Source: Saccoglossus kowalevskii (taxonomy: Eukaryota; Hemichordata; Enteropneusta; Harrimaniidae). Taken from it: a stretch of 64,000 nt of DNA. Below the pieces are notes generated by a model. It had not been told where the DNA came from. It did not search any database and saw only the letters and a program-made list of their open reading frames with translations. The stretch lies in the NCBI RefSeq assembly GCF_000003605.2, contig NW_003113394.1, forward strand, positions 35,512-99,511. Direction: 5' to 3'. Both the position numbers and the translations under genes were made by a program. This document shows positions 13,101 through 55,558 of the stretch, piece by piece; position 1 is the stretch's first letter, and the number at the start of each line of letters is the position of its first letter.

Positions 13101-13885
13101 GTTATCTGTTAGCTATGCAGTCATCACATTTATCTGTTCGTTATGCAGTCATCACATTTATCTGTTAGCTATTGCAGTCATCACATTTATCTGTTAACTA
13201 TTGCAGTCATCACATTTATCTGTTAGCTATTGCAGTCATCACATTTATCTGTTAGCTATTGCAGTCATCACATTTATCTGTTAGCTATTGCAGTCATCAC
13301 ATTTATCTGTTAGCTGTTGCAGTCATCACATTTATCTGTTAGCTACTGCAGTCATCACATATATCTGTTAGCTAATGCAGTCATCACATTTATCTGTTCG
13401 CTACTGCAGTCATCACATATATCTGTTAGCTATTGCAGTCATCACATTTATCTGTTAGCTATTGCAGTCATCACATTTATCTGTTAGCTATTGCAGTCAT
13501 CACATTTATCTGTTAGCTATTGCAGTCATCACATTTATCTGTTAACTATTGCAGTCATCACATTTATCTGTTAGCTATTGCAGTCATCACATTTATCTGT
13601 TAGCTATTGCAGTCATCACATTTATCTGTTAGCTATTGCAGTCATCACATTTATCTGTTAGCTGTTGCAGTCATCACATTTATCTGTTAGCTACTGCAGT
13701 CATCACATATATCTGTTAGCTATTGCAGTCATCACATTTATCTGTTCGCTACTGCAGTCATCACATATATCTGTTAGCTATTGCAGTCATCACATTTATC
13801 TGTTAGCTATTGCAGTCATCACATTTATCTGTTAGCTATTGCAGTCATCACATTTATCTGTTAGCTATTGCAGTCATCACATTTA
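13101..13885 (+). repeat. 348-bp (12-unit) tandem higher-order repeat
   Basis: GTTAAC occurs at 13,193 and 13,541, and GCTGTTG at 13,313 and 13,661; both intervals are 348 bp, exactly 12 units. Each copy runs GTTAAC, consensus units, GCTGTTGCAG, CTACTGCAG, CACATATATC, TTCGCTACTGCAG. Unlike F1 there is no 7-bp TCTGTTA duplication and the last marker is CTGTTCGC rather than CTTTTCGC. Copies with the same internal spacing occur at 3.03 and 42.13 kb. Short losses near 13,080-13,145 precede the block. Confidence 0.85.
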
Positions 13886-14720
13886 TCTGTATAAATTATT
13901 GCAGTCATCACATTTATCTGTTAGCTATTGCAGTCATCACATTTATCTGTTAGCAATTGCAGTCATCACATTTATCTGTTAGCTATTGCAGTCATCACAT
14001 GTATCCGTTAGTTATTGCAGCCATCACATTTATCTGTTAGCTATTGCAGTCATCACATTTATCTGTTAGCTATTGCAGTCATCACATATATCTGCTAGCT
14101 ATTGTAGTCATCACATGTATCCGTTAGTTATTGCAGCCATCACATTTATCTGTTAGCTATTGCAGTCATCACATTTATCTGTTAGTTATTGCTGTCATCA
14201 CATTTAACTGTTAGTTATTACATCCATCACATTTATCTGTTAGCTATTGCAGTCATCACATTTATCAGTTAGCTATTGCAGTCATCACATTTATCTGTTG
14301 GTTATTGCAGTCATCACATATATCTGTTAGGTATTGCAGCCATCACATGTATCTTTTAGCTATTGCAGTCATCACATTTATCTGTTAGTTATACCAGTCA
14401 TCACATTTATCTCTTAGTTATTACAGCCATCACGTTTATCTCTTAGCTATTGCAGTCATCACATTTATCTGTTAGCTATTGCAGTCATCACATTTATCTG
14501 TTAGCAATTACAGGCATCACATTTATCTGTTAGCTATTGCAGTCATCACATTTATCTGTTAGTTATTGCAGTCATCACACTTATCTGTTAGTAATATACA
14601 GCCATCACATTTATCTGTTAGCTATTGCAGTCATTACATTTATATGTTAGCAATTACAGCCATCACATATATCTGTTAGTTATTGCAGCCATCACATTTA
14701 TCTGTTAGCTATTGCAGTCA
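13886..14720 (+). repeat. Mixed block with ATCCGTTAG, TTTAACTG and ACAGGC markers
   Basis: An odd TGTATAAATTATTG unit opens the block near 13,889. ATGTATCCGTTAG units occur near 14,000 and 14,116, and TTTAACTG at about 14,203. The spacing of the second CCG (14,121) to AACTG (14,206) is repeated at 46,267/46,352 with the same offset of 32,146. A GCAATTACAGGC unit near 14,504 followed by CACACTTATC recurs at 42.8 and 43.03 kb. TAATATACAGCC near 14,591 carries a small insertion. Confidence 0.8.
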
Positions 14721-15900
14721 TCATATATATCTGTTAGCTATTGCAGTAATCACATATATCTGTTAGCTATTGCAGTCATCACATTTATCTGTTAGATACT
14801 GCAGTCATCACATATATCTGTTAGCCATTGCAGTCATCACATTTATCTGTTAGCTATTGCAGTCATCACATTTATATGTTAGTTATTGCAGTCATCACAT
14901 TTATCTGTTAGCTATTGCAGTCATCGCAAATATCTGTTAGCTTTTGCCGTCATCTCATTTATCTGTTAGCTATTACAGTCATCACATTTATCTGTTAACT
15001 ATTGCAGTCATCACATTTATCTGTTAGCTATTGCAGTCATCACATTTATCTGTTAGCTACTGCAGTCATCACATTTATCTGTTAGCTATTGCAGTCATCA
15101 CATATATCTGTTAGCTATTGCAGTAATCACATATATCTGTTTGCTATTGCAGTCATCACATTTATCTGTTAGCTATTGCAGTCATCATATATATCTGTTA
15201 GCTATTGCAGTAATCACATATATCTGTTAGCTATTGCAGTCATCACATTTATCTGTTAGCTATTGCAGCCATCATATATATCTGTTAGCTATTGCAGTCA
15301 TCACATTTATCTGTTAGCTATTGCAGTCATCACATGTATCTGTTAGCTATTGCCGTCATCTCATTTATCTGTTAGCTATTGCAGTCATCACATTTATCTG
15401 TTAGCTATTGCAGTCATCACATTTATCTGTTAGTTATTGCAGTCATCACATTTATCTGTTAGCTATTGCAGTCATCACATTTATCTGTTAGCTATTGCAG
15501 TCATCACATATATCTGTTAGCTTTTGCCGTCATCTTATTTATCTGTTAGCTATTTCAGTCATAACATTATCTGTTAGCTATTGCAGTCATCACATTTATC
15601 TGTTAGCTATTGCAGTCATCACATTTATCTGTTAGTTATTGCAGTCATCACATTTATCTGTTAGCTATTACAGTCATCACATTTATCTGTTAGCTATTGC
15701 AGTCATCACATTTATCTGTTAGCTATTGCAGTCATCACATTTATCTATTGGCTATTTCAGTCATCACATATATCTGTTAGGTATTGCCGTCATCTCATTT
15801 ATCTGTTAGCTATTGCAGTCATCACATTTATCTGTTAGCTATTGCAGTCATCACATTTATCTGTTAGCTATTGCAGTCATCACATATATCTGTCAGTTAT
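14721..15900 (+). repeat. F5 higher-order repeat, copy 2
   Basis: GCAAAT at 14,926 (one base changed from ACAAAT) leads through TTTTGCCGTC, TTACAGTC and GTTAACTATT to GCAGTAATC markers whose GTAATC parts are at 15,123 and 15,210, again 87 bp apart. The 197-bp lead spacing equals copies 1 and 3. The copy ends in a TATTGGCTATTTC and TTAGGTATTGCCG pair near 15,750, which is common throughout the window. Confidence 0.82.
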
Positions 15901-18830
15901 TGCAGCCATCACATTTATCTGTTAGCTATTGCAGTCATCTCATTTATCTGTTAGTTATTGCAGCCATCACATTTATCTTTTAGCTATTGCAGTCATCACA
16001 TTTATCTGTTAGCTATTGCAGTCATCACATATATCTGTTAGTTACTGCAGCCATCACATTTATCTGTTAGCTATTGCAGTCATCACATTTATCTGTTAGC
16101 TACTGCAGTCATCACATTAATCTGTTAGCTATTGCAGTCATCACATTTATCTTTTTGCTATTGTAGTCATCACATATATCTGTTAGTTATGGCACCCATC
16201 ACATATATCTGCTAGCTATTGTAGTCATCACATGTATCTGTTAGTTATTGCAGTCATCACATATATCTGCTAGCTATTGCAGTCATCACATATATCTGTT
16301 AGCTATTGCAGTCATCACATTTATCTGTTAGTTATTGCAGTCATCACATTTATCTGTTAGTTATTACAGCCATCACATTTATCTGTTAGCTATTGCAGTC
16401 ATCACATTTATCAGTTAGCTATTGCAGTCATCACATTTATCTGTTGGCTATTGCAGTCATCACATATATCTGTTAGGTATTGCAGTCATCTCATTTATCT
16501 GTTAGCTATTGCAGTGATCACATTTATCTGTTAGCTATTGCAGTCATCTCATTTATCTGTTAGCTATTGCAGTCATCACATTTATCTGTTAGCTATTGCA
16601 GTCATCACATTTATCTGTTAGCTATTGCAGTCATCACATTTATCTGTTAGCTATTGCAATCATCACATATATCAGTTAGCTATTGCAGTCATCTCATTTA
16701 TCTGTTAGTTATTGCAGCCATCACATTTATCTGTTAGCTATTGCAGTCATCACATTTATCTGTTAGCTATTGCAGTCATCACATATATCTGTCAGTTATT
16801 GCAGCCATCACATTTATCTGTTAGCTATTGCAGTCATCACATTTATCAGTTAGTTATGCAATCATCACATTTGTCTCTTAGCTATTGCAGTCATCACATT
16901 TATCTGTTAGCTATTGCAGTCATCACATTTATCTGTTAGCTATTGCAGTCATCACATATCTCTTAGCTATTGCAGTCATCACATTTATCAGTTAGTTATT
17001 GCAGTCATCACATTTATCTGTTAGTTATTGCAGTCATCACATTTATCTGTTAGTTATTACAACCATCACATTTATCTGTTAGCTATTGCAGTCATCACAT
17101 TTATCAGTTAGCTATTGCAGTCATTACATTTATCTGTTAGCTATTGCAGTCATCACATTTATCTGTTAGCTATTGCAGTCATCACATTTATCTGTTAGCT
17201 ATTGCAATCATCACATATATCTGTTAGCTATTGCAGTCATCTCATTTATCTGTTAGTTATTGCAGCCATCACATTTATCTGTTAGCTATTGCAGTCATCA
17301 CATTTATCTGTTAGCTATTGCAGTCATCACATATATCTGTCAGTTATTGCAGCCATCACATTTATCTGTTAGCTATTGCAGTCATCACATTTATCTGTTA
17401 GCTATTGCAGTCATCACATTTATCTGTTAGCTATTGCAGTCATCACATATATCTGTTAGCTATTGCAGTCATCTCATTTATTTGTTAGTTATTGCAGCCA
17501 TCACATTTATCTGTTAGCTATTGCAGTCATCACATTTATCTGTTAGCTATTGCAGTCATCACATTTATCTGTCAGTTATTGCAGCCATCACATTTATCTG
17601 TTAGCTATTGCAGTCATCTCATTTATCTGTTAGTTATTGCAGCCATCACATTTATCTTTTAGCTATTGCAGTCATCACATTTATCTGTTAGCTATTGCAG
17701 TCATCACATATATCTGTTAGTTACTGCAGCCATCACATTTATCTGTTAGCTATTGCAGTCATCACATTTATCTTTTTGCTATTGTAGTCATCACATATAT
17801 CTGTTAGTTATGGCACCCATCACATTTATCTGTTAGTTATTGCAGTCATCACATTTATCTGTTAGTTATTGCAGTCATCACATTTATCTGTTAGCTATTG
17901 CAGCCATCTCATATATATGTTAGCTATTGCAGTCATCACATTTATCTGTTAGCTATTGTAGTCATCTCATTTATCTGTTAGTTATTGCAGTCATCATATT
18001 TATCTGTTAGCTATTGTAGTCATCACATTTATCTGTTAGTTATTACAGCCATCACATTTATCTGTTAGCTATTGCAGTCATCACATTTATCAGTTAGCTA
18101 TTGCAGTCATCACATATATCTGTTAGTTATTACAGCCATCACATTTATCTGTTAGCTATTGCAGTCATCACATATATCTGCTAGCTATTGCAGTCATCAC
18201 ATTTATCTGTTAGCTATTGCAGTCATCACATTTATCTGTTAGTTATTGCAGTCATCACATTTATCTGTTAGTTATTACAGCCATCACATTTATCTGCTAG
18301 CTATTGCAGTCATCACATTTATCTGTTAGCTATTGCAGTCATCACATATATCTGCTAGCTATTGCAGTCATCACATTTATCTGTTAGCTATTGCAGTCAT
18401 CACATATATCTGCTAGCTATTGGAGTCATCACATGTATCTGTTAGCTATTGCACTCATCACATTTATCTGTTAGTTATTGCAGTCATCACATATATCTGC
18501 TAGCTATTGCAGTCATCACATATATCTGTTAGCTATTGCAGTCATCACATTTATCTGTTAGTTATTGCAGTCATCACATTTATCTGTTAGCTATTGCAGT
18601 CATCACATTTATCTGTTAGCTATTGCAGTCATCACATAAATCTGTTAGCTTTTGCCGTCATCTTATTTATCTGTTAGCTATTACAGTCATCGCATTTATC
18701 TGTTAACTATTGCAGTCATCTCATTTATCTGTTAGCTATTGCAGTCATCACATTTATCTGTTGGCTATTGCAGTCATCACATATATCTGTTAGGTGTTGC
18801 AGCCATCACATTTATCTGTTAGCTATTGCA
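15901..18830 (+). repeat. F6 domain, copy 1
   Basis: The domain is rich in GCAGCC, TTACAGCC, CTGCTAGC and ATCAGTTAG units and nearly lacks PstI-type units apart from a few GTTACTGCAG. TGGCACCC markers lie near 16,192 and at 17,811. From about 17,440 to 17,990 it matches 43,563 onward at an offset of 26,123 without indel. From about 18,010 to 18,588 it matches 59,262 onward at an offset of 41,252, including GGAGTC at 18,422. The CTGCTAGC variant (an NheI site) appears five times between 18,170 and 18,510. The longest forward open frame here (16,712-16,939) is satellite translation only. Confidence 0.85.
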
Positions 18831-20200: not shown

Positions 20201-21334
20201 ATTTATCTTTTCGCTACTGCAGTCATCACATATATCTGTTAGCTATTGCAGTCATCACATTTATCTGTTCGCTACTGCAGTCATCACATATATCTGTTAG
20301 CTATTGCAGTCATCACATTAATCTGTTAGCTATTGCAGTCATCACATTTATCTGTTAGCTATTGCAGTCATCACATATCTCTTAGCTATTGCAGTCATCA
20401 CATTTATCTTTTAGCTATTGCAGTCATCACATTTATCTGTTAGTTATTGCAGTCATCACATTTATCTGTTAGCCATTGCAGTCATCACATTTATCTGTTA
20501 GCTATTGCAGTCATCACATTTATCTGTTAGTTATTGCAGCCATCACATTTATCTGTTAGCTATCGCAGTCATCACATTTATCTGTTAGTTATTGCAGTCA
20601 TCTCATTTATCTGTTAGCTATTGCAGTCATCACATTTATCTGTTAGCTATTGCAGTCATCACATTTATCTGTTAGCTATTGCAGTCATCTCATTTATCTG
20701 TTAGCTATTGCAGTGATCACATTTATCTGTTAGCTATTGCAGTGATCACATTTATCTGTTAGCTATTGCAGTCATCACATTTATCTGTTAGCTATTGCTG
20801 TCATCACATGTATCTGTTAGGTATTGTAGTCATCACATTTATCTGTTAGCTATTGCAGTCATCACATTTATCTGTTAGCTATTGCAGTCATCACATATAT
20901 ATGTTAGTTATTGCAGCCATCACATATATCTGTTAGTTATTGCAGCCATCACATTTATCTGTTAGCTATTGCAGTCATCACATTTATCTGTTAGCTATTG
21001 CAGTCATCACATATATCTGTTAGCTATTGTAGTCATCACATGTATCCGTTAGTTATTGCAGCCATCACATTTATCTGTTAGCTATTGCAGTCATCACATT
21101 TATCTGTTAGCTATTACAGCCATCACATTTATCTGTTAGCTTCTCCAGTCATTACATTTATCTGTTAGCAATTACAGCCATCACATATATCTGTTAGCTA
21201 TTTCAGTCATCACATTTATCTGTTAGCTATTGCCGTCATCTCATTTATCTGTTAGCTATTGCAGTCATCACATTTATCTGTTAGCTATTGCAGTCATCAC
21301 ATTTATCTGTTAGCTATTGCAGTCATCACATTTA
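20201..21334 (+). repeat. Mixed block with GTGATCAC and ATCCGTTAG units
   Basis: The block opens with TTTTCGCTACTGCAG and CTGTTCGCTACTGCAG units without the F1 duplication. Two GTGATCAC units lie near 20,713 and 20,742. TAGGTATTGTAG at 20,818 and ATCCG at 21,046 match 46,039 and 46,267 at the same offset of 25,221. The end carries GCTTCTCCAGTC near 21,130, a private variant. Confidence 0.8.
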
Positions 21335-24300
21335 TCTGTTATCTGTTAGCTGTTGCAGTCATCACATTTATCTGTTAGCTACTGCAGTCATCACATATAT
21401 CTGTTAGCTATTGCAGTCATCACATTTATCTTTTCGCTACTGCAGTCATCACATATATCTGTTAGCTATTGCAGTCATCACATTTATCTATTAGCTATTG
21501 CAGTCATCACATTTATCTGTTAGCTATTGCAGTCATCACATTTATCTGTTAGCTATTGCAGTCATCACATTTATCTGTTAGTTCTTGCAGTCATCACATT
21601 TATCTGTCAGCTATTGCAGTCATCACATTAATCTGTTAGCTATTGCAGACATCACATTTATCTGTTAGCTATTGCAGTCATCACATTTATCTGTTAGCTA
21701 TTGTAGTCATCACATTTATCTGTTAGCTATTGCAGTCATCACATTTATCTGTTAGCTATTGCAGTCATCACATTTATCTGTTAGTTATTGCAGTCATCAC
21801 ATTTATCTGTCAGCTATTGTAGTCATCACATTTATCTGTTAGCTATTGCAGTCATCACATTTATCTGTTAGTTATTGCAGTCATCACATTTATCTGTCAG
21901 CTATTGCAGTCATCACATTAATCTGTTAGCTATTGCAGACATCACATTTATCTGTTAGCTATTGCAGTCATCACATTTATCTGTTAGCTATTGCAGTCAT
22001 CACATTTATCTGTTAGCTATTGCAGTCATCACATTTATCTGTTATCTGTTAGCTGTTGCAGTCATCACATTTATCTGTTAGCTACTGCAGTCATCACATA
22101 TATCTGTTAGCTATTGCAGTCATCACATTTATCTTTTCGCTACTGCAGTCATCACATATATCTGTTAGCTATTGCAGTCATCACATTTATCTGTTAGCTA
22201 TTGCAGTCATCACATTTATCTGTTAGCTATTGCAGTCATCACATTTATCTGTTAGCTATTGCAGTCATCACATTTATCTGTTAGTTATTGCAGTCATCAC
22301 ATTTATCTGTCAGCTATTGCAGTCATCACATTAATCTGTTAGCTATTGCAGACATCACATTTATCTGTTAGCTATTGTAGTCATCACATTTATCTGTTAG
22401 CTATTGCAGTCATCACATTTATCTGTTAGTTATTGCAGTCATCACATTTATCTGTCAGCTATTGCAGTCATCACATTAATCTGTTAGCTATTGCAGTCAT
22501 CACATTTATCTGTTAGCTATTGCAGTCATCACATTAATCTGTTAGTTATTGCAGCCATCACATATATCTGCTAGCTATTGCAGTCATCACATTTATCTGT
22601 TAGCTATTTCAGTCATCACATATATATGTTAGTTATTGCAGTCATCACATTTATCTGTTAGCTATTGCAGTCATCACATTTATCTGTTAGTTATTGCAGC
22701 CATCACATTTATCTGTTAGCTATTGCAGTCATCACATTTATCTGTTAGCTATTGCAGTCATCACATTTATCTGTTAGCTATTGCAGTCATCACATTTATC
22801 TGTTAGCTATTTCAGTCATCACGTACTTCTGTTAGGTAATGCAGCCATCACATTTATCTGTTAGCTTTTGCAGTCATCACATTTATCTGTTGGTTATTGC
22901 AGTCATCTCATTTATCTATTAGCTATTGCAGTCATTACATTTATCTGTTAGCTAATACAGTCATCACATTCATCTGTTAGCTATTGCAGTCATCACATAT
23001 CTCTTAGCTATTGCATTCATCTCATTTATTTGTTAACTATTGCAGTCATCACATTCATCTCTTAGCTATTGCAGTCATCACATATCTCTTAGCTATTGCA
23101 TTCATCTCATTTATTTGTTAGCTATTGCAGTCATCACATTTATCTGTTAGCTATTGCAGTCATCACATTTATCTGTTAGCTATTGCAGTCATCACATTTA
23201 TCTGTTAGCTATTGCAGTCATCACATTTATCTGTTAGTTATTGCAGTTATCACATTTATCTGTTAGCTATTACAGTCATCACATTTATCTGTTAGCTATT
23301 GCAGTCATCACATTTATCTATTGGCTATTTCAGTCATCACATATATCTGTTAGGTATTGCCGTCATCTCATTTATCTGTTAGCTATTGCAGTCATCACAT
23401 TTATCTGTTAGCTATTGCAGTCATCACATTTATCTGTTAGCTATTGCAGTCATCACATTTATCTGTTATCTGTTAGCTGTTGCAGTCATCACATTTATCT
23501 GTTAGCTACTGCAGTCATCACATATATCTGTTAGCTATTGCAGTCATCACATTTATCTTTTCGCTACTGCAGTCATCACATATATCTGTTAGCTATTGCA
23601 GTCATCACATTAATCTGTTAGCTATTGCAGACATCACATTTATCTGTTAGCTATTGTAGTCATCACATTTATCTGTTAGCTATTGCAGTCATCACATTTA
23701 TCTGTTAGTTATTGCAGTCATCACATTTATCTGTCAGCTATTGCAGTCATCACATTTATTTGTTAGCTATTGCAGTCATCACATTTATCTGTTAGCTATT
23801 GCAGTCATCACATTTATCTGTTAGCTATTGCAGTCATCACATTTATCTGTTAGCTATTGCAGTCATCACATTTATCTGTTATCTGTTAGCTGTTGCAGTC
23901 ATCACATTTATCTGTTAGCTACTGCAGTCATCACATATATCTGTTAGCTATTGCAGTCATCACATTTATCTTTTCGCTACTGCAGTCATCACATATATCT
24001 GTTAGCTATTGCAGTCATCACATTTATCTGTTAGCTATTGCAGTCATCACATTTATCTGTTAGCTATTGCAGTCATCACATTTATCTGTTAGCTATTGCA
24101 GTCATCACATTTATCTGTTAGTTATTGCAGTCATCACATTTATCTGTCAGCTATTGCAGTCATCACATTAATCTGTTAGCTATTGCAGACATCACATTTA
24201 TCTGTTAGCTATTGTAGTCATCACATTTATCTGTTAGCTATTGCAGTCATCACATTTATCTGTTAGTTATTGCAGTCATCACATTTATCTGTCAGCTATT

Positions 24301-24400
24301 GCAGTCATCACATTAATCTGTTAGCTATTGCAGTCATCACATTTATCTGTTAGCTATTGCAGTCATCACATTAATCTGTTAGTTATTGCAGCCATCACAT
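21335..24400 (+). repeat. F1 cluster, copies 9 to 12, with embedded F2
   Basis: TCTGTTATCTG markers lie at 21,335, 22,038, 23,462 and 23,875. Intervals are 703, 1,424 and 413 bp; the last is 14 units plus 7. The first copy carries GTTCTTGCAG at 21,581, reproduced at 48,479 (offset 26,898). Between the second and third a complete F2 block begins with ACGTACTTCTG at 22,821. It includes the private TTTGTTAACTATT and GCAGTTATC variants that recur after 34,054. The 22.0-23.6 kb segment is therefore a copy of 33.3-34.8 kb, differing by gain or loss of whole units and single bases. Confidence 0.85.
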
Positions 24401-25538
24401 ATATCTGCTAGCTATTGCAGCCATCACATTTATCTGTTAGCTATTGCAGTCATCACATTTATCTGTTAGTTATTGCAGTCATCTCATTTATCTGTTAGCT
24501 ATTGCAGTCATTACATTTATCTGTTAGCTATTGCAGTCATCACATTTATCTGTTAGCTATTGCAGTCATCTCATATATCTGTTAGCTATTGCAGTCATCA
24601 CATTTATCTGTTAGCTATTGCAGTCATCACATTTATCTGTTAGCTATTGCAGTCATCACATTTATCTGTTAGCTATTGCAGTCATCATATTTATCTGTTA
24701 GCTATTGCAGTCATCACATTTATCTGTTAGCTATTGCAGTCATCACATTTATCTGTTAGCTATTGCAGTCATCACATTTATCTGTTAGCTATTGCAGTCA
24801 TCACATTTATCTTTTAGATATTGCAGTCATCACATTTATCTGTTAGTTATTGCAGTCATCACATTTATCTGTTAGCTATTGCAGTCATCACATTTATCTG
24901 TTAGCTATTGCAGTCATCACATTTATCTGTTAGTTATTGCAGTCATCACATTTATCTGTTAGCTATTGCAGTCATCACATTTATCTGTTAGCTATTGCAG
25001 TCATCACATTTATCTGTTAGTTATTGCAGTCATCACATTTATCTGTTAACTATTGCAGTCATCACATTTATCTGTTAGCTATTGCAGTCATCACATTTAT
25101 CTGTTAGTTTTTGCAGTCATCACATTTATCTGTTAGCTATTGCAGTCATCACATATATCTGTTAGCTTTTGCCGTCATCTCATTTATCTGTTAGCTATTA
25201 CAGTCATCACATTTATCTGTTAACTATTGCAGTCATCTCATTTATCTGTTAGCTATTGCAGTCATCACATTTATCTGCTAGCTATTGCAGTCATCACATT
25301 TATCTGTTAGCTATTGCAGTCATCACATATATCTGTTAGCTATTGCAGTCATCACATTTATCTGTTAGCTATTGCTGTCATCACATATCTCTTAGCTATT
25401 GCAGTCATCTCATTTATCTGTTATCTATTGCAGTCATCACATTTATCTGTTAGCTATTGCAGTCATCACATTTATCTGTTAGCTATTGCAGTCATCACAT
25501 TTATCTGTTAGTTATTGCAGTCATCACATTTATCTGTA
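24401..25538 (+). repeat. Near-consensus run
   Basis: This is one of the most homogeneous stretches: long runs of consensus units alternate with GTTAGTTATT units, and few other variants occur. An F5-like set (TTTTGCCGTC, TTACAGTC, GTTAACTATT) lies near 25,160-25,230. A forward frame at 25,314-25,511 is satellite translation. A one-base loss (CTGTAGC) near 25,537 marks the edge of the next domain. Confidence 0.78.
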
Positions 25539-31260: not shown

Positions 31261-32714
31261 CTCATTTATTTGTTAGCTATTGCAATCATCACATTTATCT
31301 GTTAGTTATTGCAGTCATCACATTTATCTGTTAGCTATTGTAGTCATCACATATATCTGTTAGCTTTTGTCGTCATCTCATTTGTCTGTTAGCTATTACA
31401 GTCATCACATTTATCTGTTAGCTATTGCCGTCATCTCATTTATCTGTTAGCTATTGCAGTTATCACATTTATCTGTTAGCTATTGCAGTCATCACATTAT
31501 CTGTTAGCTATTGCAGTCATCACATATATCTGTTAGCTATTTCAGTCATCACATTTATCTGTTAGCTATTGCAGTCATCACATTTATCTGTTAGTTATTG
31601 CAGTCATCACATTTATCTGTTAGCTATTGCAGTCATCACATTTATCTGTTAGCTATTGCAGTCATCACATTTATCTTTTAAGATATTGCAATCATCACAT
31701 TTATCTGTTAGTTATTGCAGTCATCACATTTATCTGTTAGCTATTGCAGTCATCACATTTATCTGTTAGCTATTGCAGTCATCACATTTATCTGTTAGTT
31801 ATTGCAGTCACCACATTTATCTGTTAGCTATTGCAGTCATCACATTTATCTGTTAGCTATTGCAGTCATCACATATATATGTTAGTTATTGCAGCCATCA
31901 CATTTATCTGTTAGCTATTGCAGTCATCACATTAATCTGTTTGCTATTGCAGTCATCACATTTATCTGTTAGCTATTGCAGTCATCACATTTATCTGTTG
32001 GCTATTGCAGTTATCACATATATCTGTTAGATATTGCAGACATCACATTGATCTGTTAGCTATTGCAGTCATCACATTTATCTGTTAGCTATTGCAGTCA
32101 TCACATTTATCTGTTAGCTATTGCAGTCATCACATTTATCTGTTAGTTATTGCAGTCATCACATTTATCTGTTAGCTATTACAGTCACCACATTTATCTG
32201 TTGGCTATTTCAGTCATCACATATATCTGTTAGCTATTGCCGTCATCTCATTTATCTGTTAGCTATTGCAGTCACCACATTTATCTGTTAGCTATTGCAA
32301 TCATCACATTTATCTGTTAGCTATTGCAGTCATCACATTTATCTGTTAGTTATTGCAGTCATCACATTTATCTGTTAGCTATTACAGTCATCACATTTAT
32401 CTGTTGGCTATTTCAGTCATCACATATATCTGTTAGGTATTGCCGTCATCTCATTTATCTGTTAGCTATTGCAGTCATCACATTTATATGTTAGTTATTG
32501 CAGTCATCACATTTATCTGTTAGCTATTGCAGTCATCACAAATATCTGTTAGCTTTTGCCGTCATCTCATTCATCTGTTAGCTATTACAGTCATCACATT
32601 TATCTGTTAACTATTGCAGTCATCCCATTTATCTGTTAGCTATTGCAGTCATCACATTTATCTGTTAGCTATTGCAGTCATCACATTTATCTGTTAGCTA
32701 TTGCAGTCATCACA
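31261..32714 (+). repeat. F4/F5 segment duplicated at 54.0-55.6 kb
   Basis: Five check points from CTTTTAAGAT at 31,675 through ACATATATATG (31,871), CATTGATC (about 32,046), TTATATG (about 32,484) and ACAAAT (32,538) all reappear 22,844 bp later, so about 1,040 bp are in exact register. The match ends at 32,714/55,558, where CATGTATC faces CATACTTC. Upstream, the F4 marker at 31,371 matches 54,127 once an 88-bp tandem gain in the right copy is allowed for. Confidence 0.86.
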
Positions 32715-43300: not shown

Positions 43301-45020
43301 CCATCACATTTATCTGTTAGCTATTGCAGTCATCACATATATATGTTAGTTATTGCAGCCATCACATTTATCTGTTAGCTATTGCGGTCATCACATTAAT
43401 CTGTTGGCTATTGCAGTCATCACATTTATCTGTTAGCTATTGCAGTCATCACATATATCTGTCAGTTATCTGCAGCCATCACATTTATCTGTTAGCTATT
43501 GCAGTCATCACATTTATCTGTTAGCTATTGCAGTCATCACATTTATCTGTTAGCTATTGCAGTCATCACATATATCTGTTAGCTATTGCAGTCATCTCAT
43601 TTATTTGTTAGTTATTGCAGCCATCACATTTATCTGTTAGCTATTGCAGTCATCACATTTATCTGTTAGCTATTGCAGTCATCACATTTATCTGTCAGTT
43701 ATTGCAGCCATCACATTTATCTGTTAGCTATTGCAGTCATCTCATTTATCTGTTAGTTATTGCAGCCATCACATTTATCTTTTAGCTATTGCAGTCATCA
43801 CATTTATCTGTTAGCTATTGCAGTCATCACATATATCTGTTAGTTACTGCAGCCATCACATTTATCTGTTAGCTATTGCAGTCATCACATTTATCTTTTT
43901 GCTATTGTAGTCATCACATATATCTGTTAGTTATGGCACCCATCACATTTATCTGTTAGTTATTGCAGTCATCACATTTATCTGTTAGTTATTGCAGTCA
44001 TCACATTTATCTGTTAGCTATTGCAGCCATCTCATATATCTGTTAGCTATTGCAGTCATCACATTTATCTGTTAGCTATTGTAGTCATCTCATTTATCTG
44101 TTAGTTATTGCAGTCATCATATTTATCTGTTAGCTATTGTAGTCATCACATTTATCTGTTAGTTATTACAGCCATCACATTTATCTGTTAGCTATTGCAG
44201 TCATCACATTTATCAGTTAGCTATTGCAGTCATCACATATATCTGCTAGCTATTGCAGTCATCACATTTATCTGTTAGCTACTGCAGTCATCACATATAT
44301 CTGTTAGTTATTACAGCCATCACATTTATCTGTTAGCTATTGCAGTCATCACATATATCTGCTAGCTATTGGAGTCATCACATGTATCTGTTAGCTATTG
44401 CCGTCATCTCATTTATCTGTTAGCTATTGCAGTCATCACATTTATCTGTTAGCTATTGCAGTCATCACATTTATCTGTTAGTTATTGCAGTCATCACATA
44501 TATCTGCTAGCTATTGCAGTCATCACATATATCTGTTAGCTATTGCAGTCATCACATTTATCTGTTAGTTATTGCAGTCATCACATTTATCTGTTAGTTA
44601 TTACAGCCATCACATTTATCTGTTAGCTATTGCAGTCATCACATTTATCAGTTAGCTATTGCAGTCATCACATTTATCTGTTGGCTATTGCAGTCATCAC
44701 ATATATCTGTTAGGTATTGCAGTCATCTCATTTATCTGTTAGCTATTGCAGTGATCACATTTATCTGTTAGCTATTGCAGTCATCTCATTTATCTGTTAG
44801 CTATTGCAGTCATCACATTTATCTGTTAGCTATTGCAGTCATCACATTTATCTGTTAGCTATTGCAGTCATCACATTTATCTCTTAGCTATTGCAGTCAT
44901 CTCATTTATCTGTTAGCTATTGCAGTCATCAAATATATCTGTTAGCTATTGCAGTCATAACATTTATCTGTTAGCAATTACAGCCATCACATATATCTGT
45001 TAGCTATTGCAGTCATCACA
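43301..45020 (+). repeat. F6 domain, copy 2
   Basis: TTTGTTAGTT at 43,604 and TGGCACCC at 43,934 both lie 26,123 bp right of their partners in the first F6 domain. TGGCACCC and GGAGTC at 44,371 both lie 14,723 bp left of partners in the third. Relative to copy 1, six units (174 bp) separate the alignments at GGAGTC. A CAGTTATCTGCAGCC unit near 43,463 has gained one base and created a PstI site. Forward open frames here are satellite translation. Confidence 0.86.
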
Positions 45021-46400: not shown

Positions 46401-48232
46401 ATCACATTTATCTGTTAGTTATTGCCGTCATCACATTTATCTGTCAGCTATTGCAGTCATCACATTAATCTGTTAGCTATTGCAGACATCACATTTATCT
46501 GTTAGCTATTGTAGTCATCACATTTATCTGTTAGCTATTGCAGTCATCACATTTATCTGTTAGTTATTGCAGTCATCACATTTATCTGTCAGCTATTGCA
46601 GTCATCACATTAATCTGTTAGCTATTGCAGACATCACATTTATCTGTTAGCTATTGTAGTCATCACATTTATCTGTTAGCTATTGCAGTCATCACAGTTA
46701 TCTGTTAGTTATTGCAGTCATCACATTTATCTGTTATCTATAGCAGTCATCACATATATCTGTTAGCTATTGCCGTCATCTCAATTATCTGTTAGCTATT
46801 GCAGTCATCACATTTATCTGTTAGCTATTGCAGTCATCACATTTATCTGTTAGTTATTGCAGCCATCACATATATCTGCTAGCTATTGCAGTCATCACAT
46901 TTATCTGTTAGCTATTTCAGTCATCACATATATATGTTAGTTATTGCAGTCATCACATTTATCTGTTAGCTATTGCAGTCATCACATTTATCTGTTAGTT
47001 ATTGCAGCCATCACATATATCTGCTAGCTATTGCTGTCATCACATTTATCTCTTAGCTATTTCAGTCATCACGTACTTCTGTTAGGTAATGCAGCCATCA
47101 CATTTATCTGTTAGCTTTTGCAGTCATCACATTTATCTGTTGGTTATTGCAGTCATCTCATTTATCTAGTAGCTATTGCAGTCATTACATTTATCTGTTA
47201 GCTAATACAGTCATCACATTCATCTGTTAGCTATTGCAGTCATCACATATCTCTTAGCTATTGCATTCATCTCATTTATTTGTTAGCTATTGCAGTCATC
47301 ACATTCATCTCTTAGCTATTGCAGTCATCACATATCTCTTAGCTATTGCATTCATCTCATTTATTTGTTAGCTATTGCAGTCATCACATTTATCTGTTAG
47401 CTATTGCAGTCATCACATTTATCTGTTAGCTATTGCAGTCATCACATTTATCTGTTAGTTATTGCAGTCATCACATTTATCTGTCAGCTATTGCAGTCAT
47501 CACATGTATCTGTTAGCTATTGCAGTCATCACATTTATCTGTTAGCTATTGCAGTCATCATATTTATCTGTTAGCTATTGCATTCATCACATTTATCTGT
47601 TAGTTATTGCAGTCATCGCATTTATCTGTTAGCTATTGTAGTCATCATATTTATCTGTTAGCTATTGCAGACATCACATTCATCTGGTAGCTATTGCAAT
47701 CATCACATTTATCTGTTAGTTATTCCAGTCATCACATTTATCTGTTAGCTATTGCTGTCATCACATATATCTGTTAGCTTTTGTCGTCATCTCATTTATC
47801 TGTTAGCTATTACAGTCAGCACATTTATCTGTTAGCTATTGCAGTCATCACATTTATCTGTTAGCTATTGCAGTCATCACATTTATCTGTTAGTTATTGC
47901 AGTCATCACATTTATCTGTTAGTTATTGCAGTCATCACATTTATCTGTCAGCTATTGCAGTCATCACATTAATCTGTTAGCTATTGCAGACATCACATTT
48001 ATCTGTTAGCTATTGTAGTCATCACATTTATCTATTGGCTATTTCAGTCATCACATTATCTGTTAGCTATTGCAGTCATCACATATATCTGTTAGCTATT
48101 TCAGTCATCACATTTATCTGTTAGCTATTGCCGTCATCTCATTTATCTGTTAGCTATTGCAGTCATCACATTTATCTGTTAGCTATTGCAGTCATCACAT
48201 TTATCTGTTAGCTATTGCAGTCATCACATTTA
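46401..48232 (+). repeat. F1-tail, F2 and F4 mosaic
   Basis: TGTCAGC, CATTAATC and GCAGACATC units repeat twice near 46,440 and 46,590 without the F1 head. CTATAGCAG, CATCTCAATTATC and CTGCTAGC units follow. A full F2 block runs from CACGTACTTC near 47,072 to TTTGTTAG near 47,380. GCATTCATC, CATCGCAT and F4 follow at 47,580-47,800 as at 40.6 kb. A one-base-short CACATTATC unit near 48,055 marks a junction. Confidence 0.8.
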
Positions 48233-48640
48233 TCTGTTATCTGTTAGCTGTTGCAGTCATCACATTTATCTGTTAGCTACTGCAGTCATCACATATATCT
48301 GTTAGCTATTGCAGTCATCACATTTATCTTTTCGCTACTGCAGTCATCACATATATCTGTTAGCTATTGCAGTCATCACATTTATCTATTAGCTATTGCA
48401 GTCATCACATTTATCTGTTAGCTATTGCAGTCATCACATTTATCTGTTAGCTATTGCAGTCATCACATTTATCTGTTAGTTCTTGCAGTCATCACATTTA
48501 TCTGTCAGCTATTGCAGTCATCACATTAATCTGTTAGCTATTGCAGACATCACATTTATCTGTTAGCTATTGCAGTCATCACATTTATCTGTTAGCTATT
48601 GTAGTCATCACATTTATCTGTTAGCTATTGCAGTCATCAC
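48233..48640 (+). repeat. F1 copy 17
   Basis: TCTGTTATCTG at 48,233 and GTTCTTGCAG at 48,479 keep the exact spacing of the 21,335/21,581 copy (offset 26,898). The unit includes ACTGCAG, TTTTCGC, TCTATTAGC, TGTCAGC, CATTAATC and GCAGACATC. It ends where the F3 domain starts. Confidence 0.84.
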
Positions 48641-51600
48641 ATACATATGTTAGTTTTGCAGCCATCACATTTATCTTTTAGCTATTGCAGTCATCCATTA
48701 ATCTGTTAGCTATGCAGTCATCACATTTATCTGTTAGCTATTGCAGTCATCACATGTATCTGTTAGTTATTGCAGCCATCACATTTATCTGTTAGCTATT
48801 GCAGTAATCACATGTATCTGTTAGTTATTGCAGCCATCACATTTATCTGTTAGCTATTGCAGCCATCTCATATATCTGTTAGCTATTGCAGTCATCACAT
48901 TTATCTGTTAGCTATTGTAGTCATCTCATTTATCTGTTAGCTATTGCAGTCATCACATTTATCTGTTGGCTATTGCAGTCATCACATTTATCTGTTAGTT
49001 ATTGCAGCCATCACATTTATCTGTTAGCTATTGCAGTCATCACATTTATCTGTTAGCTATTGCAGTCATCACATTTATCTGTTAGCTATTGCAGTCATCA
49101 CATTAATCTGTTAGCTATTGCAGTCATCACATTTATCTTTTAGCTATTGTAGTCATCACATATATCTGTTAGTTATTGCAGCCATCACATTTATCTGTTA
49201 GCTATTGCAGTCATCACATTTATCTGTTAGCTATTGCAGTCATCACATATATCTGTCAGTTATTGCAGCCATCACATTTATCTGTTAGCTATTGCAGTCA
49301 TCACATTTATCTGTTAGCTATTGCAGTCATCACATTTATCTGTTAGCTATTGCAGTCATCACATATATCTGTTAGCTATTGCAGTCATCTCATTTATTTG
49401 TTAGTTATTGCAGCCATCACATTTATCTGTTAGCTATTGCAGTCATCACATTTATCTGTTAGCTATTGCAGTCATCACATTTATCTGTCAGTTATTGCAG
49501 CCATCACATTTATCTGTTAGCTATTGCAGTCATCTCATTTATCTGTTAGTTATTGCAGCCATCACATTTATCTGTTAGCTATTGCAGTCATCACATTTAT
49601 CTGTTAGCTATTGCACGTCATCACATTCATCTGTTAGCTATTGCAGTCATCACATATCTCTTAGCTATTGCAGTCATCTCATTTATCTGTTAGCTATTGC
49701 AGTGATCACATTTATCTGTTAGCTATTGCAGTGATCACATTTATCTGTTAGTTATTACATCCATCACATTTATCTGTTAGTTATTGCAGTCATCACATTT
49801 ACTGGTATCTGTTAGTTATTACAGCCATCACATTTATCTGTTAGCTATTGCAGTCATCACATTTATCAGTTAGCTATTGCAGTCATCACATTTATCTGTT
49901 GGCTATTGCAGTCATCACATATATCTGTTAGGTATTGCAGCCATCACATGTATCTGTTAGCTATTGCAGTCATCACATTTATCTGTTAGCTATTGCAGTC
50001 ATCTCATTTATCTGTTGGCTATTGCAGTAATCACATGTATCTGTTAGTTATTGCAGCCATCACATTTATCTGTTAGCTATTGCAGCCATCTCATATATCT
50101 GTTAGCTATAGCAGTCATCACATTTATCTGTTAGCTATTGTAGTCATCTCATTTATCTGTTAGTTATTGCAGTCATCTCATTTATCTGTTAGCTATTGCA
50201 GTCATCACATTTATCTGTTAGCTATTGCTGTCATCACATTTATCTGTTAGCTATTGCAGTCATCACATTTATCTGTTAGCTATAGCAGTCATCACATATC
50301 TCTTAGCTATTGCAGTCATCTCATTTATCTGTTAGCTATTGCAGTGATCACATTTATCTGTTAGCTATTGCAGTGATCACATTTATCTGTTAGTTATTAC
50401 ATCCGTCACATTTATTTGTTAGCTATTGCAGTCATCATATTTATCTGTTAGGTATTGCAGTCATCACATTTATCTGTTAGCTATTGCAGTCATCACATTT
50501 ATCTGTTAGCTATTGCAGTCATCACATTTATTTGTTAGTTATTGTAGTCATCACATTTATCTGTTAGCTATTGCAGTCATCACATATATATGTTAGTTTT
50601 TGTAGCCATCACATTTATCTTTTAGCTATTGCAGTCATCCATTAATCTGTTAGCTATTGCAGTCATCACATTTATCTGTTAGCTATTGCAGTCATAACAT
50701 TATCTGTTAGTTATTGCAGCCCTCACATTTATCTGTTAGCTATTGCAGTCATCACATTTATCTGTTGGCTATTGCAGTCATCACATATATCTATTAGGTA
50801 TTGCAGTCATCACATTTATCTGTTAGCTATTGCAGTCATCACATATCTCTTAGGTATTGCAGTCATCTTATTTATTTGTTAGCTATTGCAGTGATCACAT
50901 TTATCTGTTAGCTATTGCAGTGACCACATTTATCTGTTAGTTTTTACATCCATCACATTTATCCGTTAGTTATTGCAGCCATTACATTTCTCTGTTAGCT
51001 ATTGCAGTCATCACATTTATCTGTTAGCTATTGCAGTCATCACATATCTCTTAGGTATTGCAGTTATCTTATTTATCTGTTAGCTATTGCAGTGATCACA
51101 TTTATCTGTTAGCAATTGCAGTGATCACATTTATCTGTTAGTTATTACATCCATCACATTTATTTGTTAGTTATTGCAGTCATCACATTTATCTGTTAGT
51201 TATTACAGCCATCACATTTATCTGTTAGCTATTGCAGTCATCACATTCATCAGTTAGCTATTGCAGTCATCACATTTATCTGTTGGCTATTGCAGTCATC
51301 ACATATATCTGTTAGGTATTGCAGCCATCACATGTATCTGTTAGCTATTGCAGTCATCACATTTATCTGTTGGCTATTGCAGTCATCACATTTATCTGTT
51401 GGCTATTGCAGTAATCACATGTATCTGTTAGTTATTGCAGCCATCACATTTATCTGTTAGCTATTGCAGCCATCTCATATATCTGTTAGCTATTGCAGTC
51501 ATCACATTTATCTGTTAGCTATTGTAGTCATCTCATTTATCTGTTAGTTATTGCAGTCATCTCATTTATCTGTTAGCTATTGCAGTCATCACATTTATCT

Positions 51601-52740
51601 TTTAGCTATTGCAGTCATCACATTTATCTGTTAGCTATTGCAGTCATCACATATCTCTTAGCTATTGCAGTCATCTCATTTATCTGTTAGCTATTGCAGT
51701 GATCACATTTATCTGTTAGCTATTGCAGTGATCACATTTATCTGTTAGCTATCGCAGTCATCACATTTATCTGTTAGCTATTGCAGTCATCACATTTATA
51801 TGTTAGCTATTGCAGTCATCACATTTATCTGTTAGCTATTGCAGTCATCACATTTATCTGTTAGTTATTGCAGTCATCACATTTATCTGTTAGCTATTGC
51901 AGTCATCACATTTATCTGTTAGCTATTGCAGTCATCACATATATATGTTAGTTATTGCAGCCATCACATTTATCTGTTAGCTATTGCAGTCATCACATTA
52001 ATCTGTTAGCTATTGCAGTCATCACATTTATCTGTTAGCTATTGCAGTCATCACATTTATCTGTTAGTTATTGCAGTCATCTCATTTATCTGTTAGCTAT
52101 TGCAGTTATCACATTTATCTGTTAGCTATTGCAGTCATCACATTTATCTGTTAGCTATTGCAGTCATCACTTATCTATTAGCTATTGCAGTCATCTCATT
52201 TATCTGTTAGCTATTGCAGTGATCACATTTATCTGTTAGCTATTTCAGTGATCACATTTATCTGTTAGCTATTGCAGTCATCACATTTATCTGTTAGCTA
52301 TTGCTGTCATCACATTTATCTGTTAGCTATTGTAGTCATCACATTTATCTGTTAGCTATTGCAGTCATCACATTTATCTGTTAGCTATTGCAGTCATCAC
52401 ATATATATGTTAGTTATTGCAGCCATCACATTTATCTGTTAGCTATGCAGTCATCACATTTATCTGTTAGCAATTGCAGTCATCACATTTATCTGTTAGC
52501 TATTGCAGTCATCACATGTATCTGTTAGTTATTGCAGCCATCACATTTATCTGTTAGCTATTGCAGTCATCACATTTATCTGTTAGCTATTGCAGTCATC
52601 ACATATATCTGCTAGCTATTGTAGTCATCACATATCTCTTAGGTATTGCAGTCATCTTATTTATCTGTTAGCTATTGCAGTGATCCCATTTATCTGTTAG
52701 CTATTGCAGTGATCACATTTATCTGTTAGTTATTACATCC
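48641..52740 (+). repeat. F3 (GTGATCAC) domain, copy 2
   Basis: Composition is as in copy 1: GTGATCAC, TTACATCC, GTAATCACATGTATC, GCAGCCATCTCATATATC and CACATATCTC units. The segment 50,480-51,751 repeats 25,539-26,810 at an offset of 24,941. The stretch upstream of it (about 50,400-50,480) instead resembles 26,990-27,070, so the copies are mosaics. The CTGGTA insertion occurs once here (near 49,801) against twice in copy 1. At 49,614 a one-base gain gives GCACGTCATC. Confidence 0.86.
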
Positions 52741-53325
52741 ATCACATGTATTTGTTAGTTATTGCAGTCATCACATTTATCTGTTAGTTATTACAGCCAT
52801 CACATTTATCCGTTAGCTATTGCAGTCATCACATTTATCAGTTAGTTATTGCAGTCATCACATTTATCTGTTGGCTATTGCAGTCATCACATATATCTGT
52901 TAGTTATTACAGCCATCACATTTATCTGTTAGCTATTGCAGTCATCACATTTATCTGTTAGCTATTGCAGTCATCACATTTATCAGTTAGTTATTGCAGT
53001 CATCACATTTATCTGTTAGTTATTGCAGTCATCACATTTATCTGTTAGTTATTACAGCCATCACATTTATCTGTTAGCTATTGCAGTCATCACATGTATC
53101 AGTTAGTTATTGCAGTAATCACATTTATCTGTTGGCTATTGCAGTCATCACATATATCTGTTAGCTATTGCAGTCATCACATTTATCTGTTAGCTATTGC
53201 ACTCATCACATATATCTGTTAGCTATTGCAGTCATCACATTTATCTGTTAGCTATTGCAGTCATCACATTTATCTGTTAGCTGTTGCAGTCATCACATTT
53301 ATCTGTTCGCTACTGCAGTCATCAC
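52741..53325 (+). repeat. Block repeated at the left end of the window
   Basis: ATCAGTTAG, TTGGCTATTG and TTACAGCC units in the same order as 1-370 occupy 52,819-53,188. One substitution was noted. The block then changes to GCACTCATC and GCTGTTGCAG units leading into the PstI-type segment. Confidence 0.84.
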
Positions 53326-55558
53326 ATTTATCTGTTAGCTATTGCAGTCATCACATTTATCTGTTAGCTATTGCAGTCATCCCATTTATCTGTTAGCTAT
53401 AGCAGTCATCACATTTATCTGTTAGCTGTTGCAGTCATCACATTTATCTGTTAGCTACTGCAGTCATCACATATATCTGTTAGCTATTGCAGTCATCACA
53501 TTTATCTGTTCGCTACTGCAGTCATCACATATATCTGTTAGCTATTGCAGTCATCACATTTATCTGTTAGCTATTGCAGTCATCACATTTATCTGTTAGC
53601 TATTGCAGTCATCACATTTATCTGTTAGCTATTGCAGTCATCACATTTATCTGTTAGTTATTGCAGTCATCACATTTATCTGTTAGCTATTGCAGTCATC
53701 ACATTTATCTGTTAGCTATTGCAGACATCACATTTATCTGTTAGCTATTGCAGTCATCACATTTATCTGTTGGCTATTGTAGTCATCACATTTATCTGTT
53801 AGCTATTGCAGTCATCACAGTTATCTGTTAGTTATTGCAGTCATCACATTTATCTGTTATCTATTGCAGTCATCACATATATCTGTTAGCTATTGCCGTC
53901 ATCTCATTTATCTATTAGCTATTGCAGTCATTACATTTATCTGTTAGCTAATACAGTCATCATATTCATCTGTTAGCTATTGCAGTCATCACATATCTCT
54001 TAGCTATTGCATTCATCTCATTTATTTGTTAGCTATTGCTATCATCACATTTATCTGTTAGTTATTGCAGTCATCACATTTATCTCTTAGCTATTGCAGT
54101 CATCACATATATCTGTTAGCTTTTGTCGTCATCTCATTTGTCTGTTAGCTATTACAGTCATCACATTTATCTGTTAGCTATTGCCGTAATCTCATTTATC
54201 TGTTAGCTATTGCAGTCATCACATTTATCTGTTAGCTATTGCAGTCATCACATTATCTGTTAGCTATTGCAGTCATCACATATATCTGTTAGCTATTGCA
54301 GTCATCACATTTATCTGTTAGCTATTGCAGTCATCACATTTATCTGTTAGCTATTGCAGTCATCACATATATCTGTTAGCTATTGCAGTCATCACATTTA
54401 TCTGTTAGCTATTGCAGTCATCACATTTATCTTTTAAGATATTGCAATCATCACATTTATCTGTTAGCTATTGCAGTCATCACATTTATCTGTTAGCTAT
54501 TGCAGTCATCACATTTATCTTTTAAGATATTGCAATCATCACATTTATCTGTTAGTTATTGCAGTCATCACATTTATCTGTTAGCTATTGCAGTCATCAC
54601 ATTTATCTGTTAGCTATTGCAGTCATCACATTTATCTGTTAGTTATTGCAGTCACCACATTTATCTGTTAGCTATTGCAGTCATCACATTTATCTGTTAG
54701 CTATTGCAGTCATCACATATATATGTTAGTTATTGCAGCCATCACATTTATCTGTTAGCTATTGCAGTCATCACATTAATCTGTTTGCTATTGCAGTCAT
54801 CACATTTATCTGTTAGCTATTGCAGTCATCACATTTATCTGTTGGCTATTGCAGTTATCACATATATCTGTTAGATATTGCAGACATCACATTGATCTGT
54901 TAGCTATTGCAGTCATCACATTTATCTGTTAGCTATTGCAGTCATCACATTTATCTGTTAGCTATTGCAGTCATCACATTTATCTGTTAGTTATTGCAGT
55001 CATCACATTTATCTGTTAGCTATTACAGTCATCACATTTATCTGTTGGCTATTTCAGTCATCACATATATCTGTTAGTTATTGCCGTCATCTCATTTATC
55101 TGTTAGCTATTGCAGTCATCACATTTATCTGTTAGCTATTGCAGTCATCACATTTATCTGTTAGCTATTGCAGTCATCACATTTATCTGTTAGTTATTGC
55201 AGTCATCACATTTATCTGTTAGCTATTACAGTCATCACATTTATCTGTTGGCTATTTCAGTCATCACTTATATCTGTTAGGTATTGCCGTCATCTCATTT
55301 ATCTGTTAGCTATTGCAGTGATCACATTTATATGTTAGTTATTGCAGTCATCACATTTATCTGTTAGCTATTGCAGTCATCACAAATATCTGTTAGCTTT
55401 TGCCGTCATCTCATTTATCTGTTAGCTATTACAGTCATCACATTTATCTGTTAACTATTGCAGTCATCCCATTTATCTGTTAGCTATTGCAGTCATCACA
55501 TTTATCTGTTAGCTATTGCAGTCATCACATTTATCTGTTAGCTATTGCAGTCATCACA
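53326..55558 (+). repeat. Composite of 4.1 kb and 31-33 kb segments
   Basis: The first 530 bp copy 4,066-4,595 (offset 49,260). An F2 part with the private CATCATATTCATC variant follows near 53,951, at an offset two units larger. From 54,006 the block copies 31.26-32.71 kb and holds exact register (22,844) from 54,519 to 55,558. A CTTTTAAGAT unit is doubled at 54,431 and 54,519 (88 bp, three units plus one base), a gain absent from the left copy. This is a clear splice of two segments that are 27 kb apart in the left half. Confidence 0.86.

Follow-up and report, generated by a model that had tools for sequence, protein, structure and literature searches.

A 64,000-nucleotide stretch of the Saccoglossus kowalevskii genome (RefSeq assembly GCF_000003605.2, contig NW_003113394.1, here C719), referred to below as the window, consists of a 29-bp satellite whose units form a mosaic of sharply bounded blocks, most of them shorter than 1 kb, that are shared at all offsets. 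Analyses of the unit strings and of simulated arrays indicated that this single-orientation array was probably shaped by local turnover together with the long-range copying of short tracts. An excess of matches at offsets of 23–29 kb was also present, and support for a ~26-kb recurrence in C719 is moderate rather than firm. An earlier note on the window had read a series of repeated anchors in this offset range as the remains of very large duplicated pieces that had since gained and lost units. Same-order matches were commoner at 23–29 kb than at random offsets, as that note expected; the very large pieces were not borne out.

Tandem Repeats Finder (TRF), contig placement and unit parsing identified the window (positions 1–64,000, forward strand) as a satellite array with the consensus ATTGCAGTCATCACATTTATCTGTTAGCT. 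TRF reported 2206 copies of 29 bp with 90% matches and 0% indels, covering all 64,000 bases. The window corresponds to positions 35,512–99,511 of C719 and is the right-hand part of a contig of 99,511 bp that is all satellite over its 99.5 kb; the array goes on for 35.5 kb leftward of the window and reaches the contig end on the right. Positions given here are window coordinates, and negative positions lie in the left flank of C719. The window had no open frame of 150 amino acids or more. The array was cut into units by alignment to the consensus and then compared with itself as a letter string, which produced 2207 units of 383 types in the window and 3433 units of 463 types in C719.

A search of the 572-Mb genome, in 4830 contigs, identified 1423 exact copies of the consensus, all forward and none reverse. 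Three other contigs, C328 (13.6 kb), C3710 (43.9 kb) and C3319 (13.4 kb), were parsed end to end as the same satellite and proved to be mosaics of the same blocks as C719. Parsing assigned 876 consensus units to C719, 96 to C328, 363 to C3710 and 87 to C3319, the last two counts being derived from printed fractions, for a sum of 1422. In addition, all 70 genomic matches to one variant unit lay within these four contigs. Based on the 1422 consensus units and the 70 of 70 variant matches, the four contigs are probably parts of a single array at least 170 kb long. The satellite copies found were all on one strand across the four contigs; reverse-complement matches of 120 bp or longer were absent within and between them, and no inversion was seen in ~170 kb. 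Both features by which satellite DNA is recognized, a long head-to-tail array of a short unit (2206 copies in the window, 3433 units in C719) and many genomic copies at one or few loci (the 1423 exact matches and the four contigs), were thus found. The array is of a known kind, satellite DNA with scattered block duplication, and is ordinary in kind, with a 26-kb scale that is unproven.

Self-comparison of C719 produced 356 local alignments of unit strings scoring at least 40 bits. The 10th to 90th percentiles of their size spanned 9 to 30 units, with a median of 15 and a maximum of 71 units (~2.1 kb), and the 70 alignments listed of these 356 had offsets from 0.4 to 94 kb. Strong alignments were found outside the 23–29 kb range as well, the strongest including some at 11.3, 14.7, 31.6, 42.5, 53.8, 59.5 and 94.3 kb. 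For example, on the forward strand, positions 22,019–23,739 match 33,309–34,942 at 11.3 kb (52 of 59 columns identical), 30 units at 1430–2306 are identical to those at 33,309–34,185 at 31.9 kb, and positions 43,817–44,657 match 58,540–59,351 at 14.7 kb (26 of 29 columns). Short local duplications occur too, one example being the pair at 57,420 and 57,826, which agrees in 11 of 14 units. The longest exact repeat was 1180 bp in C719 and 1397 bp over any of the four contigs; the latter comprises 47 whole units at positions 35,318 and 37,964 of C3710, which are 2.6 kb apart.

The size of the alignments, the order of neighbouring blocks, the block ends and the divergence all spoke against very large duplicated pieces that later gained and lost units. 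Preserved order had been taken to imply such pieces, and the longest local alignment in the contig was only the 71 units (~2.1 kb) reported above. Neighbouring block pairs 2–4 kb apart in the contig stood in the same and in reversed order about equally often (118:121 at 40 bits, 21:25 at 60 bits), and same order led at 4–7 kb (289:226 at 40 bits, 61:35 at 60 bits). On exact runs the same:reversed ratio was 1.18 at 2–4 kb and 1.05 at 4–7 kb. The lead of same order at longer range is partly geometric because the contig is finite, and the merging of alignments biases the counts at 0.5–2 kb against same order. Block ends do not resume as the gain or loss of units would leave them: the match resumed with one copy abutting at 14 of 282 block ends (gaps of 3–35 units only), compared to a mean of 19.6 (standard deviation 4.1) at shifted positions and 19 in a backward control.

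Divergence was independent of distance, with no relation to offset (rho -0.09, P 0.30) among 149 of the 168 alignments of at least 60 bits, 19 having been left out for length difference. Divergence was very unequal among blocks inside the 23–29 kb band, the extremes being 0 mismatches over 1131 bp and 28 over 895 bp. The block list had suggested that in-band blocks were younger, which was not confirmed (P 0.64; permutation 2754/10000). Long collinear copies of uniform divergence, as expected of a large segmental duplication, were not found, the alignments reaching 2.1 kb at most and the divergence varying as just described. Likewise, there was no contiguous tandem unit at 23–29 kb, such as the multi-monomer unit in high-identity tandem that defines a higher-order repeat (HOR); collinearity of the kind expected of an HOR was weakly kept at the level of neighbourhoods and not kept at 2–4 kb. 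That large pieces were kept in order was not clearly shown, and the inference drawn from it is not established.

We propose instead that two processes continually acted on the array. In one, runs of units would be duplicated and deleted locally; in the other, tracts mostly under 1 kb and at most ~2 kb would be copied between positions tens of kb apart. The copying may have proceeded by ectopic gene conversion, by patch-like exchange of misaligned sister chromatids, or by excision and re-insertion. The 23–29 kb excess would then represent a second, weaker layer, left by an old, now mostly overwritten amplification of ~26-kb pieces, by a distance preference in template choice, or as a lucky draw from the tract copying itself.

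Simulations on unit strings, in which the models were hand-set and not fitted, compared four processes with 8 runs per model and mutation rate. Tandem duplication and deletion with copying over random distances (tract mean ~20 units) came near the real array in block number, block length, spread of distances, order ratios and junction type. The three other processes were rejected. Local duplication and deletion alone left no pairs beyond 29 kb. Unequal exchange, tried with one size law (log-uniform), produced ~9 times too many shared runs, its longest runs averaging ~280–360 units vs 39 observed. Local turnover with an occasional 26-kb duplication left runs of hundreds of units. When random-distance copying was simulated in 200 runs, the real values of run number, longest run, top-10 run, order ratios and junctions were within the 5–95% range, with the real order at 0.5–2 kb at the lower edge of it.

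To assess recurrence near 26 kb, full shuffles and first-order Markov unit strings were tried as null models and replaced by piece shuffles, the full shuffles because they destroy the blocks themselves. Piece shuffles (pieces of 1.7, 3.5 and 7.0 kb) keep blocks and destroy long-range order; counts are given in this order of piece size and are the shuffles that reached the observed value or, for chain tests, the mean of the cut but unshuffled order. All counts below should be read with many statistics having been run on the same contig. Offsets of 22.8–28.9 kb held 24% of the matching bits at offsets above ~7 kb, compared to means of 15.9% and 14.5% and maxima of 23.4% and 25.9% in two sets of 40 block shuffles. 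Chains of any offset with gaps up to 5.2 kb favored same over reversed order (scores 1207 vs 530 in the window, 1496 vs 1192 in the contig), and those with gaps up to 2.0 kb did not (312 vs 356 and 402 vs 469, respectively). This unbanded comparison alone was kept; the comparison of collinear with anti-collinear chains inside an offset band was dropped as unfair because a narrow band leaves reversed chains no room.

The collinear chain of the window in the 22.8–28.9 kb band, a band chosen from these same data, was reached by 6, 2 and 4 of 300 shuffles. At any offset of 7 kb or more the window chain was reached by 36, 42 and 42 of 300, and at offsets of 14–40 kb by 13, 15 and 17 of 300. For the whole contig the counts were 23, 22 and 16 of 200 in the band and 23, 22 and 9 of 200 at any offset; they were 71, 46 and 36 of 200 at 14–40 kb and 149, 128 and 119 of 200 at 40–70 kb. 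A version of the test with smaller gaps gave in-band fractions of 0.033, 0 and 0.017 with 60 window shuffles, and 0.16, 0.04 and 0.12 for the maximum over bands with 25 contig shuffles.

The lag profile, which compares neighbourhood composition in 1-kb bins, had a peak at 26.4 kb in the contig and a second rise at 53–54 kb. Shuffles of the contig reached the free peak in 2, 5 and 20 of 500 cases, the 23–29 kb band in 1, 0 and 0, and the peak plus harmonic in 0, 0 and 3; the last statistic was devised with the contig profile already in view, and its small counts therefore overstate the case. In the window alone the corresponding counts were 11, 38 and 86 of 500 for the free peak, 2, 5 and 11 for the band, and 6, 38 and 57 for the peak plus harmonic. 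Winsorising left the free peak reached by 1, 4 and 10 of 500 contig shuffles and by 46, 96 and 161 of 500 window shuffles. In addition, a type-phase periodogram (pieces of 1.7 and 3.5 kb) was best at 27–27.5 kb in the window (global 3 and 23 of 400) and at 30–30.5 kb in the contig (0 and 14 of 400).

Sequence that the earlier note had not covered was consistent in part with this signal. When the rows of the lag profile were limited to the 35.5-kb left flank, with partners that include the window, the excess reached weakly into the flank: the 23–29 kb band was matched by 22, 34 and 63 of 1000 shuffles, the 49–57 kb band by 122, 137 and 183, both bands together by 1, 6 and 10, and the free peak by 98, 197 and 269. 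The type-phase periodogram of the left flank alone had nothing at 23–29 kb (104 and 224 of 400). In C3710 alone the excess in the 23–29 kb band was reached by 273, 273 and 302 of 1000 shuffles; its free lag peak was at 33.5 kb (154, 288 and 306 of 1000), and its periodogram was best at 27.5 kb, weakly so (123 and 174 of 400; 20 and 31 of 400 within 23–29 kb). The cross-profile of C3710 against C719 had maxima at shifts of ~1, 25, 52 and 78 kb, with smaller ones elsewhere. No order common to these two contigs was detected. In the chain test, 163, 158 and 153 of 200 shuffles equalled or exceeded the real value, and in the phase-coherence test (global 430, 488 and 519 of 600) reversed order outscored forward.

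The seven anchors on which the proposed super-period was built were of unequal value, four being exact multi-unit matches. The strongest was F3 (25,539/50,480), with exact runs of 19 and 24 units: a block of 44 units at 25,542–26,809 matches 50,483–51,750 at an offset of 24,941, with 43 of 44 units identical and 1 mismatch in 1268 bp. F6 (17,811/43,934) contains an exact run of 18 units at the claimed offset, within a block at 17,288–18,099 that matches 43,410–44,222 at 26.1 kb (26 of 28 units identical); parts of this block occur again at 40.8 kb, at 58.5 kb and in the left flank, and the order of the anchors is thus not exclusive. The 18 units of F1 (21,581/48,479) at 21,200–21,728 are identical to those at 48,098–48,626 at an offset of 26,898. 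F4/F5 (31,675/54,519) has an exact run of 19 units, with an exact core at 31,626–32,177, in a block at 31,366–32,699 that matches 54,122–55,543 at 22.8 kb (35 of 49 aligned columns identical). All of these blocks and their second copies are on the forward strand. The ATCCG anchor (21,046/46,267) held in part, with one rare unit in common and a broken neighbourhood. The GTTAAC motif occurs 36 times in the contig, 25 of these in the window, and the GTTAAC pair therefore has no weight; the ACAGGC motif occurs 3 times (14,510, 42,804 and 43,036) with slight surrounding match. Matches at about twice the proposed period had also been reported. Both exist (-173 to 290 with 52,645, offset 52.8 kb, and 4.1 with 53.3 kb, offset 49.3 kb), and the collinear chains at 40–70 kb were no better than those of shuffles.

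Several comparisons weigh against random-distance copying as a full account of the array. In the 8-run comparison the fraction of runs beyond 7 kb was 0.95 in the real array vs 0.87 in the simulated ones, and the same:reversed ratio at 0.5–2 kb was 0.93 vs 1.14 and 1.39. The real contig lag peak was matched in 13 of 280 runs (1/120, 3/80 and 9/80 in three settings) and in 2 of 200; counts for the peak plus harmonic were 2 of 280 and 0 of 200. The peak of the real window was attained in 27 of 280 runs and its peak plus harmonic in 9 of 280. The chain statistic was less telling: in simulations with no 26-kb feature its real value was reached in 22 of 280 runs for the contig and in 18 of 280 for the window. 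As the real peak is rare under random-distance copying, this process alone leaves the 26-kb layer unexplained. A preference for ~26 kb in the choice of template during homogenisation, for instance by chromatin loop size, is an improbable addition; short tracts copied mostly between places ~26 kb apart would give a 26-kb recurrence without local order. Five settings with 30–60% of tract copies sent ~26 kb away were simulated, with 40 runs per setting. Three of them placed the real array inside the 5–95% range for 11 of 12 statistics, and the remaining two did so for 10 and 7 of 12. Because the preferred distance was itself taken from the data, these simulations show that such a preference could exist, not that it does. 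In its 200 runs, random-distance copying already missed just the two peak statistics.

There may also be no super-period: a mosaic of hundreds of shared blocks admits many such chains, of which the chain of anchors would be one, with a band picked by eye. We regard this as quite possible, if short of an even chance. Free-offset chains as good as the real one occurred in 36–42 of 300 window shuffles and 9–23 of 200 contig shuffles, the in-band chain of the whole contig was reached by 16–23 of 200, and simulated contigs with no 26-kb feature also attained the real chain. The in-band excess of C3710, which over a quarter of shuffles reached, the empty left-flank periodogram, and the free lag peak of the window, reached by 11, 38 and 86 of 500 shuffles and 27 of 280 simulations, point the same way. 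However, the free peak and the 23–29 kb band of the contig lag profile were reached by few shuffles, and the periodogram peaks of the window and contig likewise argue against chance. A mis-joining of long reads of ~26 kb could have produced a false recurrence at read length, and contigs that are satellite from end to end are a usual place for assembly breaks. We consider such an artifact highly unlikely, as mis-joined reads from a single locus should have many kb in common, whereas the longest exact repeats are those of 1180 and 1397 bp, and multi-kb overlaps would resolve an array of this type.

The remaining alternative, the idea of the earlier note in a weakened form, is that a piece of ~26–27 kb was duplicated two to four times and then overwritten about once by short-tract turnover, so that recurrence would be left at the level of neighbourhoods alone. 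It is a doubtful reading. The contig lag peak with its second rise and the preference of the left-flank rows for the same band are consistent with it, as is a simulated 4-fold amplification of 26.7 kb followed by 200 turnover steps, in which the median peak height was 0.38 vs 0.379 in the real contig. The peak plus harmonic was at least as high as the real one in 19 of 40 of these runs vs 0 of 200 without amplification, and in 7 of 24 runs of a separate set, 3 of these with a longest run of 45 units or fewer, as in the real array; with more tract copying it was attained in 0 of 24. After 150 and 200 steps the peak was reached in 29 and 19 of 40 runs with 4 copies and in 25 and 16 of 40 with 2 copies, and amplifications 300 or more steps old left little or no trace in the contig statistics. 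With 4 copies and 200 steps, however, the real run number, top-10 run, abutting fraction, and 0.5–2 and 4–7 kb ratios were below the 5% point. The misfit was smaller with 2 copies and 200 steps, where run number and the 4–7 kb ratio fit the real array, but the real abutting fraction, top-10 run and 0.5–2 kb ratio were still just below the 5% point and the real harmonic was above the 95% point, the simulated one being too low. The very unequal ages of in-band blocks and the lack of an order common to C719 and C3710, which carries the same satellite, also weigh against an old amplification.

Excerpts of two papers (PMC9859433, PMC8122249) describe alpha satellite and other centromeric HORs, which are usually explained there by unequal crossover and gene conversion. 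The S. kowalevskii array resembles the HORs of these excerpts in that monomer variants form recurring multi-unit blocks, and differs from them in that at 23–29 kb the blocks are not head-to-tail multi-unit repeats, but are scattered, short and locally out of order. It also differs from a Smith-type unequal crossover model, as the log-uniform exchange simulation produced shared runs in excess and of excessive length. The human DXZ1 array, for which one excerpt reports duplications of hundreds of kb (PMC9859433), is an example of very large duplications within an array; the longest local alignment here is, by comparison, ~2.1 kb. Sub-sequences of the unit, on both strands, had no match in the open-licence PMC literature, and the phrase "29-bp satellite" was absent among the literature matches listed, some of which have "29 bp".

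Satellite arrays are usually put down to unequal crossover of neighbouring units. Of the four processes compared by simulation, the copying of short tracts across tens of kb gave the best fit to the array studied here, which can also serve to test whether such copying favors a particular distance. Should the 26-kb lag turn up again elsewhere in this array or in relatives, sequence alone would suffice to measure the scale on which satellites exchange.

Two further features of C719 were observed. A family of blocks with a 36-bp unit (7 extra bases) recurs in steps of ~10–12 kb over the first 35 kb of the window (698–2306, 10,451–11,740, 21,961–24,413 and 33,309–35,058), near 41,000, and in the left flank at about -20,500 to -18,600; it supplies many pairs outside the 26-kb band. 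In addition, the first and last kilobases of the contig have two blocks in common, in the same order and 91–94 kb apart (-35,487 to -34,883 with 55,803–56,407, and -33,487 to -32,676 with 60,860–61,671).

The assembly also contains the mitochondrial genome, as contig C4830 (17,037 bp). Its COX3 matches COX3 chains in the PDB (E ~1e-129); entry 1v54 is presumably bovine. The gene names were read from translations, those of COX1 and COX3 alone being backed by searches. COX1 (13,355–14,941) is on the strand opposite to COX2, COX3, ATP6, ND1 and ND2, ND2 comes before ND1, and tRNA-Pro and tRNA-Phe flank ND6, an order unusual by the vertebrate standard that could be a real rearrangement or a misassembly. 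A notothenioid origin, suggested by mitochondrial gene orders, was not confirmed, as the inversion published for Trematominae extends from the control region to trnI and does not cover COX1 (PMC7936035). ND1, ND2 and ND5 have one internal AGA each, whereas no AGA, AGG, TAA or TAG was found in the other nine frames examined. AGA is a stop under the vertebrate mitochondrial code, and the ND1, ND2 and ND5 frames are open when it is read as serine (table 5). The ND1 AGA residue falls in what we take to be a stretch with a conserved serine.

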